Positions 7,604 to 51,703 of a DNA stretch of 64,000 bases are shown piece after piece. Made by a program: the position numbers and the translations under genes. Numbering within the stretch: the stretch's first letter is position 1; every line of letters starts with the position of its first letter. The stretch is from a gamma proteobacterium symbiont of Ctena orbiculata (GTDB taxonomy: Bacteria; Pseudomonadota; Gammaproteobacteria; Chromatiales; Chromatiaceae): positions 124,001 through 188,000 of the forward strand of contig QBVD01000049.1 of NCBI GenBank assembly GCA_003058525.1. Direction: 5' to 3'. The notes below the pieces were generated by a model. The model was not told the DNA's origin. It saw only the letters and a program-made list of their open reading frames with translations, and made no database searches.

Positions 7604-8041
7604 TCAACATTCCAGCCAAAACGTCACCGGACCATTATTGATGAGGGCCACCTGCATATCAGCGCCAAAAATACCACAGGCCACCGGTTGGTGCAGTGCT
7701 TGCGCGCGCTCAGTCAAATAGGAAAATAGACGTTTTCCCATTTCCGGATCGGCGGCGCTGGAAAACCCCGGTCGCATACCCTTTTTGGTATCGGCCGCCA
7801 GGGTAAACTGAGGAATCAGCAGCAAACCACCCTGAATATCCCTCAGGCTCAAGTTCATACGGCCGGTCTCATCGTTGAAGACACGGTACCCCAGCAATCG
7901 TTCAAGCAGGCGATCGGCTTTGCCGCTATCATCGTTTTTCTGAATCCCTACCAGCACGGCCAGTCCCCGGTCGATCTCAGCGACCGGCTCACCGTCGATA
8001 TGCACGCTTGCCTCATTCACCCGCTGCAGCAGCCCGATCAC
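7604..8041 (-). CDS. dtd: D-aminoacyl-tRNA deacylase
   Basis: Removes D-amino acids (and glycine) mischarged on tRNAs. The 145-residue protein matches the family over its full length: MIGLLQRVNEASVHIDGE start, the SLRDIQGGLLLIPQFTLAADT segment containing the Ser-Gln motif of the active site, and NNGPVTFWLE at the C-terminus (NxGPVT motif). It overlaps the prolyl iminopeptidase gene by 4 bp and is therefore probably translated together with it. Confidence 0.95.
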   Translation of the reverse strand: MIGLLQRVNEASVHIDGEPVAEIDRGLAVLVGIQKNDDSGKADRLLERLLGYRVFNDETGRMNLSLRDIQGGLLLIPQFTLAADTKKGMRPGFSSAADPEMGKRLFSYLTERAQALHQPVACGIFGADMQVALINNGPVTFWLEC

Positions 8042-8991
8042 GGCAACTCCTTTGCGAATCTGTCCGTTGCCTCGATCAAGGCAGTGCGGATACCGGGTTC
8101 CGCCGCGGAGTGGCCGGCATCCCCGATTACTTTCAGTTCACTGCCCGGCCAGGCGCGATGGAGATCCCAAGCGGAGGCCATTGGGCAGATAAGATCATAG
8201 CGCCCTTGCACAATGACACCCGGTATACCCGCCAGCCTATCGCTCTCCAGCAACAATTGATTGGGGCGCAGGAAGGCATGATTGACAAAATAGTGGCACT
8301 CGATACGGGCCAGACTCAAGGCTGTGTGAGGATCTGAAAAAAAACTGACCACAGCAGGATTTGGATGGAGACTGGCAGTGCGGCCTTCCCATACCGACCA
8401 CGCTTTGGCAGCCGCCATTCGATCAATATCGTTCTCGCCGCTAAGGCGGCGGTGATAGGCGTGTAACAGGTCGTCCCGTTCCTGTTGCGGGATTGGGGCG
8501 ATGAAATCTTCCCAATAATCCGGAAAGACACGGCTTGCCCCATGCTGATAGAACCAACGGATCTCCTCATCACGGCAGAGAAAGATGCCCCTGAGGATCA
8601 TCCCTGTGGTCCTTTGCGGGTGGGATTGAGCATAGGCAAGTGCGAGTGTCGATCCCCAGGAACCGCCGAACAATAACCATTGCTCGATGTTCAGCTGCTG
8701 ACGAATCCTTTCGATATCACCAACCAGGTCCCAGGTGGTGTTGGCTTCCAGCGAGGCGTGCGGTGTGGAGTGGCCACAGCCACGTTGATCGAAGAGCACG
8801 ACCCGATAGTGATCGGGATCGAAAAAACGGCGATGATAGTGTTCACAGCCGGCCCCCGGGCCACCATGGAGAAACAGCACCGGAATCCCATCCGGCTTGC
8901 CAACCTGCTCAACGTAGAGTCGATGGCCGTTACCCACAGGCAGCATTTGGGATGAGAACGGTTCAATGGCTGGATAGAGGTCTTTCATCAA
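8038..8991 (-). CDS. pip: Prolyl iminopeptidase
   Basis: Alpha/beta-hydrolase (S33) that removes N-terminal proline from peptides in the cytoplasm. The 317-residue protein has the oxyanion HGGPGAGC motif, the nucleophile elbow GGSWGSTLAL, the acid Asp in VQGRYDLICP and the catalytic His in GDAGHSA. No signal peptide is seen. It is in a two-gene unit with dtd. The region upstream of its start (9000-9300) holds a probable small RNA on the opposite strand. Confidence 0.93.
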   Translation of the reverse strand: MMKDLYPAIEPFSSQMLPVGNGHRLYVEQVGKPDGIPVLFLHGGPGAGCEHYHRRFFDPDHYRVVLFDQRGCGHSTPHASLEANTTWDLVGDIERIRQQLNIEQWLLFGGSWGSTLALAYAQSHPQRTTGMILRGIFLCRDEEIRWFYQHGASRVFPDYWEDFIAPIPQQERDDLLHAYHRRLSGENDIDRMAAAKAWSVWEGRTASLHPNPAVVSFFSDPHTALSLARIECHYFVNHAFLRPNQLLLESDRLAGIPGVIVQGRYDLICPMASAWDLHRAWPGSELKVIGDAGHSAAEPGIRTALIEATDRFAKELP

Positions 8992-9005
8992 TATTCAGGT
9001 CGCCA

Positions 9006-9045
9006 TGTAGGAAAAATCCTACATCGATTAGAGAAAAATCTCACA
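9006..9045 (+). promoter_or_regulatory. Tandem GacA/UvrY-box-like sites
   Basis: 9006-9023 reads TGTAGG-AAAAAT-CCTACA, a perfect 6-bp inverted repeat with a 6-nt spacer. It closely matches the GacA upstream activating sequence TGTAAG-N6-CTTACA. A second, weaker copy, TTAGAG-AAAAAT-CTCACA, lies at 9028-9045. It has the same spacer and its centre is 22 bp away, about two helical turns. Both precede a probable CsrA-binding small RNA. The GacA box is established for rsmY/rsmZ/csrB promoters; its assignment here is by resemblance. Confidence 0.7.
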
Positions 9046-9087
9046 AACAATGTGTGCAGAATCCCACAGTAAAAGTTAAATATTGTG

Positions 9088-9223
9088 TCATTATTAAGTT
9101 GTCGTCATCAGGGATGTACACCAAGGACATAGAGCTCAGGAGAGCACAGGGACGATAAGCTTAGCCAACCAAGCCGACGACTATAAGCCCAACTGCAAGG
9201 AATGCGGTTGGGCTTCTTCTTTT
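9088..9223 (+). ncRNA. Probable RsmY/RsmZ/CsrB-type CsrA-sequestering small RNA
   Basis: A gene-free stretch of about 135 nt ends in a strong intrinsic terminator and contains five GGA sites: CAGGGATG (9110s), CAAGGACA (9122-9129), CAGGAGAG, CAGGGACG and AAGGAAT in the terminator loop. Several lie in hairpin loops: GCTC-AGGA-GAGC (9134-9145), CATC-AGG-GATG (9106-9116) and the AGGAA loop at 9198-9202. Tandem GacA-box-like sites lie 45-80 nt upstream. Size, GGA-in-loop pattern, terminator and upstream box all match RsmY/RsmZ-type RNAs that titrate CsrA/RsmA. The transcription start (about 9088) is an estimate from an AT-rich -10-like stretch near 9076-9086. There is no protein similarity or open frame. 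Confidence 0.72.
9185..9223 (+). terminator. Intrinsic terminator of the small RNA
   Basis: Arms 9185-9197 and 9203-9215 pair over 13 bp with one G-T pair; the loop is AGGAA, followed by TCTTCTTTT. The T-tract is on the plus strand only, so it terminates plus-strand transcription and does not serve typA or pip, which are on the minus strand. Confidence 0.85.
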
Positions 9224-9309
9224 ATACATGACTGACATTACCTCAGACCCGCCATTCTGCCAAACCGGAAATTAATAAACGTATCCGATCCAGGATCTGT
9301 TGCCTTGCC

Positions 9310-11124
9310 CTACAGCTCCCGTGATGCACGTTTGCGCTCATGCTCCCTGAGGTGCTTTTTGCGCAACCTGATGGCACCCGGAGTGACTTCCACCAGTTCG
9401 TCATCCTCAATGAACTCCAACGCCTGCTCGAGGCTATATTGCAGCGGGGGCGTCAGAATGATTGAGTCGTCCTTTCCGGCGGCCCGAATGTTGGTTAATT
9501 GCTTGCCTTTCAGAGGATTAACCACCAGATCGTTTTCCCGGGAGTTGATACCCACTATCTGCCCCTCATAGACATCATCACCCGGCGAGGCGAAAAGCCT
9601 GCCTCGCTCCTGGAGGTTAAATAGGGCATATCCAAGCACCTTACCCTGGCCATTGGCGATTAATACGCCGTTTTTCCTCGCGGCTATCCCCCCTTGCTGG
9701 GTGGGACCATAGTGATCGAAAACATGGTAGATCAACCCGGTGCCTGAAGTGGTGGTCATAAATTCGGTCTGAAAACCGATCAATCCCCGGGAGGGTATGA
9801 TGTAGTCGAGTCGGACTCTTCCTTTGCCATCCGGCACAATATCCTTGAGTTCACCCTTGCGCGCACCCAGTGCCTCCATGATGCTGCCCTGATCCTTCTC
9901 CTCCACATCCACGGTCAACTGCTCGTAAGGCTCGCACACCTCTCCCTCGACTTCGCGAAAGATGACCTCCGGCCGGGATACGGCCAGTTCATAACCCTCA
10001 CGGCGCATGTTCTCGATCAAGACCGAAAGATGCAGTTCACCCCGCCCGGAAACCTTGAACTTCTCCGGGTCTGTCCCTTCCTCGACCCGCAGTGCCACAT
10101 TGTGTATCAGCTCTCGCTCGAGGCGCTCTTTAAGTTGTCTGGAGGTGAGATATTTACCTTCCAGTCCGGCAAAGGGCGAGGTATTGACCTGAAAGGTCAT
10201 TGAGACGGTGGGCTCATCCACGGACAGTGGAGGCATCGCTTCTACATGCTCCGGATCGCAGAGGGTGTCGGAGACATTGGGCGCCTCCAGTCCGCTGATG
10301 GCAATGATGTCTCCGGCGCTGGCCTGGTCGACCTCGAAGCGCTCCAGACCGAGGTAACCGTAGACTATCCCTATCTTGCCGCGGTGCTGTTCTCCATCAT
10401 ATTTCACCACGGTGACCTGTTGATTGGGTTTCACCGTACCGCGGGTCACTCTACCCACCGCGATCGCCCCGACATAGCTGTTGTAGTCCAGATTGGAGAT
10501 CTGCATCTGGAAGGGGCCGTCCGGATCGACTTCAGGCGCCGGGCAGTGATTGACAATCGTTTCGAACAGCGGCCGCATGTCGCCCTGATTCACATGACTC
10601 TCCAGACCTGCGTAACCATTGACCGCCGAGGCGTAGATGATTGGGAAATCGAGCTGCTCGTCAGTTGCACCGAGACGGTCGAACAACTCAAATACCTGAT
10701 CGATAACCCAGTCGGGTCTCGCCCCCGGTTTATCGATCTTGTTCACCACCACAATGGGTCGCAGGCCGTGCTTGAACGCCTTCTGGGTGACGAACCGGGT
10801 CTGTGGCATGGGGCCTTCCTGGGCATCCACCAACAATAGTACTGAATCGACCATTGACAGCACACGCTCCACCTCACCACCGAAATCGGCATGTCCAGGT
10901 GTATCGACAATATTGATACGATATTCCCTCCAGCGGATGGCCGTGTTCTTAGACAGGATAGTGATACCCCGTTCCCTCTCCTGATCGTTGGAGTCCATGA
11001 CGCGCTCGACATTGCCAAAACGCTCACCCAGGGTTCCAGACTGTTTCAACAGTTCATCCACAAGCGTGGTCTTGCCATGATCGACATGCGCGATAATGGC
11101 GATATTTCTTAGGTTCTCGATCAC
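9310..11124 (-). CDS. typA: Ribosome-associated GTPase TypA/BipA
   Basis: A 604-residue translational GTPase of the EF-G/LepA superfamily, involved in ribosome assembly and stress or low-temperature growth. G-domain motifs: [15 protein letters not shown] (P-loop), the RERGITI switch, [14 protein letters not shown] and [15 protein letters not shown]-like domains follow, then the BipA-specific C-terminal part ([28 protein letters not shown]). The length is normal for the family. It appears monocistronic, with a 727-bp AT-rich region upstream. Confidence 0.97.
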
Positions 11125-51145: not shown

Positions 51146-51502
51146 ATGAGTGAAATGCAAGACTACAAGTCAAGCCTTGGCAACGCAGAAAGCCGCAAGT
51201 TCGAGACTTTCTCCTACCTGCCTTCTATGAATGCAGACCAGATCCGCACCCAGATCGAGTTCATCGTATCCAAGGGCTGGAATCCATCTATCGAGCACAC
51301 CGAGCCAGAGAATGCCAGCGGCAGCTACTGGTACATGTGGAAACTGCCCATGTTCGGCGAAACCGACGTCGACGCTATCCTGGCTGAGTGTGAAGCTTGC
51401 CACAAGGCTCACCCGAAGAACCACGTACGCCTACTGGGCCTGGACAACTATGCCCAGTGCGCAGGCGCATCAATGGTTATCTACCGTGGTGAGACTGTCT
51501 AA
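51146..51502 (+). CDS. cbbS: RuBisCO form I small subunit
   Basis: A 118-residue small subunit of the L8S8 enzyme. It begins [20 protein letters not shown] and contains [34 protein letters not shown] and [20 protein letters not shown]. It lies 79 bp after cbbL and is followed by a strong GC-rich terminator. cbbL and cbbS may therefore be made in excess over the downstream activase genes, by partial read-through. Confidence 0.98.
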
Positions 51503-51530
51503 GGTCTGATTTCAGGACCATGGACGAAGG

Positions 51531-51567
51531 GCCCCGCCCCCCAAACCTGGGCGGCGGGGCTTTTTCT
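51531..51567 (+). terminator. GC-rich intrinsic terminator/attenuator after cbbS
   Basis: GCCCCGCC (51531-51538) pairs with GGCGGGGC (51553-51560), extended inwards by CCC/GGG, and is followed by TTTTTCTTT. Lying between cbbS and cbbQ in the same operon direction, it can set the RuBisCO-to-activase ratio. Confidence 0.88.
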
Positions 51568-51703
51568 TTAAACAACTGATCAAAGTCAGCTGGTTTTCCA
51601 AAACCCCACGTTAGGGTTTCGGAAAACCTGCTTTCAACTATTACCCCGCGGTGCCTTCGGCATCCTGGTGGTTATCAACCTGATTACAAAAAGGTAGGAA
51701 ATC

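Follow-up and report, generated by a model that had tools for sequence, protein, structure and literature searches.

A probable CsrA-sequestering small RNA of a new sequence family, encoded between pip and typA in a bacterial symbiont of Ctena orbiculata

The small RNAs RsmX, RsmY and RsmZ of Pseudomonas (RsmY, RF00195, and its relatives) are about 110-130 nt long and carry several GGA motifs, some of them in hairpin loops; their genes have an upstream GacA palindrome and an intrinsic terminator and occur as paralogues and tandem duplicates. The Escherichia coli RNAs CsrB and CsrC (RF00018; we take RF00084 to be CsrC) are GGA-rich CsrA decoys under the control of BarA/UvrY. The first prediction of Csr/Rsm-type RNAs is said to be that of Kulkarni in 2006. 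For Pseudomonas, tandem rsmX-1/rsmX-2 pairs and up to five rsmX genes are described in the available part of one account (PMC7911923), and for Vibrio csrB1-4 the available part of another describes an upstream site for VarA, a GacA-family protein, and a copy number rising by duplication (PMC6262261).

A locus resembling these systems lies in a 64,000-nt stretch of DNA (hereafter, the window) from the genome of a sulfur-oxidising symbiont of Ctena orbiculata (assembly G000, 4.74 Mb in 112 contigs), whose pip protein shares 96% identity with its counterpart in the lucinid-clam symbiont Candidatus Thiodiazotropha endolucinida. It is an unannotated intergenic plus-strand unit, comprising boxes, an AT-rich stretch, a 124-nt element and a terminator, and it is situated between pip and typA, where the original prediction, made from the letters of the window, had placed it. 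The following features were recognised.

8038..8991, minus strand: pip, prolyl aminopeptidase, divergent neighbour (TIGR01249, 434.8 bits, cut-off 259.75)
9006..9023, strand not assigned: GacA-type box 1, perfect TGTAGG-AAAAAT-CCTACA, starting 94 nt 5' of the RNA (sequence)
9028..9045, strand not assigned: box 2, degenerate TTAGAG-AAAAAT-CTCACA with four mismatches, starting 72 nt 5' of the RNA (sequence)
9051..9068, strand not assigned: third box-like site, TGTGTG-N6-CCCACA with three mismatches, starting 49 nt 5' of the RNA (box scan)
9089..9097, plus strand: AT-rich stretch, putatively -10-like (sequence)
9100..9223, plus strand: predicted small RNA gene of the Csr/Rsm type (full-length match to models R1 and R2)
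9101..9106, plus strand: 5' arm of a long-range closing stem, pairing with 9176-9181 (fold, covariation)
9112..9114, plus strand: GGA site 1, within CAGGGATG (sequence)
9125..9127, plus strand: GGA site 2 (sequence)
9134..9145, plus strand: GGA site 3, in the loop of hairpin GCUC-AGGA-GAGC (predicted fold)
9150..9152, plus strand: GGA site 4, within CAGGGACG (sequence)
9164..9174, plus strand: GCCAACCAAGC, conserved non-GGA motif (CCAACCA exact in 55 of 68 family members)
9176..9181, plus strand: 3' arm of the closing stem, pairing with 9101-9106 (fold, covariation)
9185..9215, plus strand: intrinsic terminator of 13 pairs with a T-rich tail, GGA site 5 (9199-9201) in its loop (fold, terminator scan)
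9310..11124, minus strand: typA, ribosome-associated GTPase, convergent neighbour (TIGR01394, 948.2 bits, cut-off 757.3)

Judged from the sequence, 9100-9223 very probably encodes a GacA-activated, CsrA-sequestering RNA of the Csr/Rsm type, and the best reading is that it works like RsmX/Y/Z, but as a member of a new sequence family. The Csr/Rsm-type assignment of the original prediction is supported by conservation, covariation, boxes at fixed distances, GGA enrichment and hairpins, co-occurrence with GacA, and the presence of CsrA, GacA-like and BarA-like genes; the marks of the class found here are an intergenic non-coding gene with a terminator, GGA hairpins, a fixed-distance box, and genes for CsrA and GacA/BarA. 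From these features we infer that the RNA is transcribed, that GacA and CsrA bind, and which traits would be affected, including the motility, carbon storage and host traits named in the original prediction. The extent given in the original prediction was revised: the transcript is best assigned to 9100-9223, the interval to which R1 and R2 both align end to end (R2, 97 bits, E 1.8e-20 within the window), and the boxes upstream of 9100 are predicted promoter sites outside the RNA. At window positions 51496-51569 (plus strand), a weak R2 match (16.5 bits, E 0.027) is probably a terminator alone.

Comparison of the whole window with Rfam 15 found no family at the gathering threshold, and neither the models for RsmY, RsmZ/PrrB and CsrB, which had been proposed as a check, nor that for CsrC matched at gathering or at E ≤ 10. 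The three matches that 8850-9350 did give at E ≤ 10 (two snoRNAs and one plant-virus element, E 5.7-7.2) were attributed to chance. As a positive control for the library, E. coli csrB was found at 380.4 bits. Eighteen loci of relatives gave no credible Csr/Rsm match in Rfam; an RsmY line at one of them, L222 (17.3 bits, gathering 57, E 6.2), lay on the opposite strand and was dismissed as noise. Unlike the symbiont RNA, CsrB is 369 nt long, and R2 misses CsrB just as the Rfam CsrB model misses the symbiont RNA. The neighbouring genes of RsmX/Y/Z in Pseudomonas also differ from those found here. The symbiont RNA also carries GCCAACCAAGC, whose conservation was established among members of its own family. 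R2 supplies a covariance model for a family absent from Rfam 15.

The RNA is conserved throughout the genus Ca. Thiodiazotropha. Loss of the GGA motifs or boxes in close relatives, named beforehand as evidence that would count against the prediction, was not seen: blastn with 9000-9225 found the RNA in 20 of 20 same-genus genomes, and a box with at most two mismatches precedes 35 of 35 copies. Beyond the genus, blastn matches were mostly short and near chance, but covariance models did reach those genomes; a blastn search of plasmids gave no match. Alignment of 36 copies from 21 genus genomes (A1) yielded model R1, which at E ≤ 0.1 matched 93 of 210 family genomes. Seventy-two R1 matches were examined, of which 58, together with ten of the 36 genus copies, formed an alignment of 68 diverse members (A3) and, from it, model R2. 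Left out of A3 were bare terminators without GGA (L184, L185), more divergent loci of one genus (L188, L189, L192, L193), a locus with an internal expansion (L038), near-duplicates (L176, L177, L181, L183, L190, L191) and the second copy at L219. At E ≤ 0.001, R2 matched 22 of 22 genus genomes; in the family it matched 124 of 210 genomes, spread over 39 of 61 genera, and 99 of the 168 genomes of good quality. In an even draw across the class, 25 of 370 genomes matched at E ≤ 0.01; four belong to the symbiont's own family, and many of the other matches are weak. Matches near E 1e-3 are a mixture: L243, L244, L246 and L247 resemble bare terminators or coding DNA and were rejected, and others adjoin typA. 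The family and class-wide counts therefore indicate an RNA chiefly of family level, with scattered outliers.

The upstream region provides support that is independent of this search, because the covariance models exclude it. Direct reading bore out both the perfect TGTAGG-N6-CCTACA palindrome at 9006-9023 and the weaker copy 22 bp further on (9028-9045). The pattern TGTNRG-N6-CYNACA fits ten places in the symbiont's own genome, and TGTAGG-N6-CCTACA occurs only at 9006-9023. A box with at most three mismatches starts at -71 to -75 in 51 of the 68 members (22 perfect), against an expectation of 0.37 from shuffled upstream sequences. The window copy is among the 17 members lacking one there, its -72 site being degenerate and its perfect box standing at -94; outside the genus, the box of most relatives is found at about -72, the position of the window's degenerate box 2. 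Among genus copies (35 of the 36 were counted, the last being cut by a contig end), the best box is at -94 or -95 in 31 and at -73 in four others (G004, G013, G014, G018), always with at most two mismatches. By our count, 70 of 74 matches with at most three mismatches in the 68 members fall at -49 to -52, -72 to -75 or -93 to -95. The box-like sites at 9006-9068 and in the upstream regions of relatives are thus spaced by about 22 bp, i.e., two helical turns, and GacA dimers may line up next to one another along the same face of the helix. A consensus scan of the locus found no sigma-70 promoter.

Within the RNA, GGA was read directly at 9112, 9125, 9139, 9150 and 9199, in agreement with the five motifs claimed earlier; CAGGGATG and CAGGGACG match CANGGANG, as had been said of two sites, and the remaining three do not fit it. 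The 13-bp terminator stem was likewise recovered, at 9185-9215. Of the three GGA loops originally proposed, the minimum-energy fold retains the hairpin at 9134-9145 and the terminator loop but not the 9106-9116 hairpin, which competes with a closing stem, 9101-9106/9176-9181, that had been overlooked. The fold has an energy of -40 kcal/mol (z = -2.94), and 3 of 200 shuffles were equally stable. Covariation across relatives, another of the suggested checks, is evident in A3 as compensatory changes in both the closing and terminator stems: 91.3% of cells are paired, compared with 78.7% after shuffling, and 173 cells carry double changes, compared with 51.8 after shuffling and 24-37 when the alignment is slid by one to three columns. 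These counts lean towards the structure because A3 members were collected with R1, a model of the same structure. The variants of the closing stem are GTCGTC/GACGAC, GTCGCC/GGCGAC, GTCATC/GATGAC and GTCGCA/TGCGAC.

Might the palindrome, GGA motifs and terminator have come together by chance, or form part of a small coding gene? A plus-strand open reading frame (8640-9158) overlaps the RNA locus, and the GGA count of the window RNA alone, five, is within chance (shuffle mean 3.1; 13% of shuffles reach it). The reading frame, however, runs antisense through pip, and conservation of the locus extends over the genus and a large part of the family, where compensatory changes and indels of one or two bases are seen, so we regard this explanation as hardly conceivable. 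Over the 68 members, GGA occurs 5.69 times per RNA, compared with 3.48 in shuffled sequences (sd 0.16), and 31 of 36 genus copies carry five or six (array copy 1 has three). Internal GGA motifs lie in loops of stems of at least four pairs in 52 of 309 cases, against 17.9 with swapped flanks (sd 4.0; maximum 33 of 500), and 42 of the 68 RNAs have at least one such hairpin, a kind of element that R1 did not contain. An array copy has GCAA-AGGA-UUGC as the counterpart of the GGA site 3 hairpin. By predicted pairing in the 68 members, on the other hand, internal GGA is no more open than the interior average (0.49 vs 0.53).

The exact recurrence of CCAACCA in 55 of 68 members, and its being unpaired more often than the interior background (0.67 vs 0.53 by predicted pairing, 68 members), raise another explanation, namely that a GacA-activated small RNA pairs with mRNAs mainly through GCCAACCAAGC, the GGA motifs being secondary. 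There is a precedent in RgsA of Pseudomonas, which, in the available part of its description, is GacA-dependent, has a single RsmA motif and does not titrate RsmA (PMC2375449). Most members nevertheless have five to six GGA, and hairpin GGA exceed chance, both of which fit CsrA titration rather than base-pairing, and the succession of box, GGA hairpins and terminator is the order of RsmX/Y/Z; a mainly base-pairing RNA is accordingly judged quite improbable. It is unlikely, though not to the same degree, that the family has two functions, with GGA serving CsrA and the near-invariant, mostly unpaired GCCAACCAAGC binding an mRNA seed or a second protein, and with the array clade described below having raised dosage to five copies along with a second CsrA-like gene, tuning the CsrA pool. 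At L038 (1497-1693, minus strand, genome G029), the RNA extends to 197 nt with nine GGA, apparently by internal duplication of GGA and CCAACCA modules.

By our count, typA lies inside the fetched flank at 28 of 50 family loci (L034, L038, L168-L174 and L194-L234; the loci L175-L193, which are second loci or come from one genus and none of which adjoins typA, were left out) and at 5 of 21 class matches outside the family. A general linkage to typA, which had been expected, was rejected: among 60 typA 3' flanks from other families, drawn from the first 81 of a similarity-sorted list (138 class genomes have typA) and hence not a random sample, four have a perfect box and one a box with two mismatches, with many GGA. 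The same five flanks match R2 at E ≤ 0.01, two of them having already been matched in the class-wide draw; the typA flank L291 matches only at E 0.27. Such RNAs seem to have settled at the typA flank long ago and to have been lost from it often, but the sample cannot date this. Behind typA in other families, L282 (G250), L297 (G332) and L299 (G319) hold longer, GGA-rich, CsrB-like units, L282 apparently two in a row.

This convergent position behind typA in many genomes, together with box 1 starting 15 nt from the pip start, would also suit a cis element of the neighbours, that is, a typA 3' UTR or terminator, or a pip regulatory region, with no separate RNA gene. Because of that short distance, GacA could act on pip too. 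The terminator, however, lies on the plus strand and typA on the other, and the family has members elsewhere. A second, separate R2 match occurs in each of 22 genus genomes; in the symbiont's own genome (L235; contig 2, 112402-112528; E 4e-14) it is preceded by TGTAAG-N6-CCTACG, and neither typA nor pip is found within its 3.1 kb. Since the same two protein genes flank it in all 11 loci compared, the second locus is an old paralogue. In addition, G002, G007, G010, G012 and G016 have four tandem copies at the pip/typA place (L123-L127), every one with its own terminator and its own box (at most two mismatches). Given these independent units, we consider a purely cis-acting element highly improbable, and a separate Csr/Rsm-type RNA gene is preferred.

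The array copies cluster by array position and not by genome, and the array is therefore older than the divergence of those genomes. Its outermost copy, with three GGA and a two-mismatch box, may be decaying. An array may be present in G008 too, whose contig begins inside a copy's promoter. Tandem pairs also occur in G222, G065 and G073. Pseudomonas has tandem rsmX pairs, in contrast to four-copy rows in five symbiont genomes, and the csrB copies of Vibrio form separate synteny groups plus one adjacent pair, compared with up to four in a row in the symbionts; the available parts of these two accounts describe no four-copy row (PMC7911923; PMC6262261). Two further divergent Rsm-like loci were observed in the genus of G119 and G121 (L188, L189, L192, L193), with box-like sites 100-151 nt upstream, and there are therefore up to four loci per genome in that genus.

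The genome also encodes the proteins that such an RNA would need. It has a canonical csrA, above the family cut-off and adjoining lysC (identified by eye), whose product shares, by our count, 51 of 60 residues with E. coli CsrA (1y00); PDB entries 2jpp and 2mf0-2mfh, presumably RsmE with RNA, are among its matches. A GacA orthologue, 50% identical to UvrY and two genes from uvrC (read by eye), scores 274.8 bits on NF007018, under the NCBIfam cut-off of 280, with the next family at 161, and a BarA-like kinase shows 36% identity across residues 5-888 of 918. For co-occurrence, GacA was defined by E ≤ 1e-60, a threshold of our choice that 129 of 210 genomes pass, only 28 of them above the curated cut-off. 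GacA and an R2 match were both present in 114 of the 210 family genomes and both absent from 71, with RNA alone in 10 and GacA alone in 15; the resulting odds ratio of 54 ignores shared ancestry and includes some incomplete genomes.

We propose that the BarA/GacS-like kinase would phosphorylate the GacA orthologue, which would then bind the box-like sites in 9006-9068 and turn on transcription of an RNA of about 120 nt, stopping at the terminator 9185-9215. The long closing stem would produce a multi-branched body showing about five GGA sites, at least two of them in hairpin loops, and these sites would sequester CsrA dimers, so that CsrA-repressed mRNAs would be freed while the Gac system is on. 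A second gene of the family lies on another contig of this genome, much as RsmY and RsmZ coexist in Pseudomonas.

In the available part of one study of Ca. T. endolucinida, which is closely related to the present symbiont, csrA heads a table of strongly transcribed symbiont genes common to three clam hosts, at 78,000-85,000 TPM, exceeded by rbcS in one host, with hypothetical proteins excluded from the table (PMC13137333, Table 1); csrA is also among the top symbiont transcripts in hosts according to the available part of PMC12172469. The main texts of both papers contain no mention of small RNA, sRNA or GacA, and among the matches listed in a search of the open-licence literature on the genus and order, no description of this RNA or of a CsrA-antagonist RNA was found. 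The proposed RNA, encoded at least twice in each genome, would supply the missing half of a CsrA switch in bacteria not easily manipulated, and existing gill RNA data could address whether CsrA is free or titrated in the host. RNAs of this kind are familiar, but within the open-licence literature searched this family, with its distribution and arrays, appears to be new; new here are the second locus in 22 of 22 genus genomes, the four-copy arrays in five, the 22-bp box series, the typA linkage and GCCAACCAAGC.

Variation was also observed in csrA itself. A second CsrA-like gene (about 62 bits) is found only in array-clade genomes (G002, G007, G008, G010, G016). We do not claim that the copy numbers of the array and of CsrA are connected, because the genomes form one clade and thus represent one event. 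No csrA was found in G012, an array genome, or in G005, and G010 has only the 62-bit gene. Other extra CsrA-like matches occur in G006, G001 and G000; a short CsrA-like open reading frame in the symbiont's own genome (L012, 1447-1629, minus strand, G000 contig 91) has, by eye, Gln at the position of Arg44, which we take to be an RNA-binding residue of CsrA.
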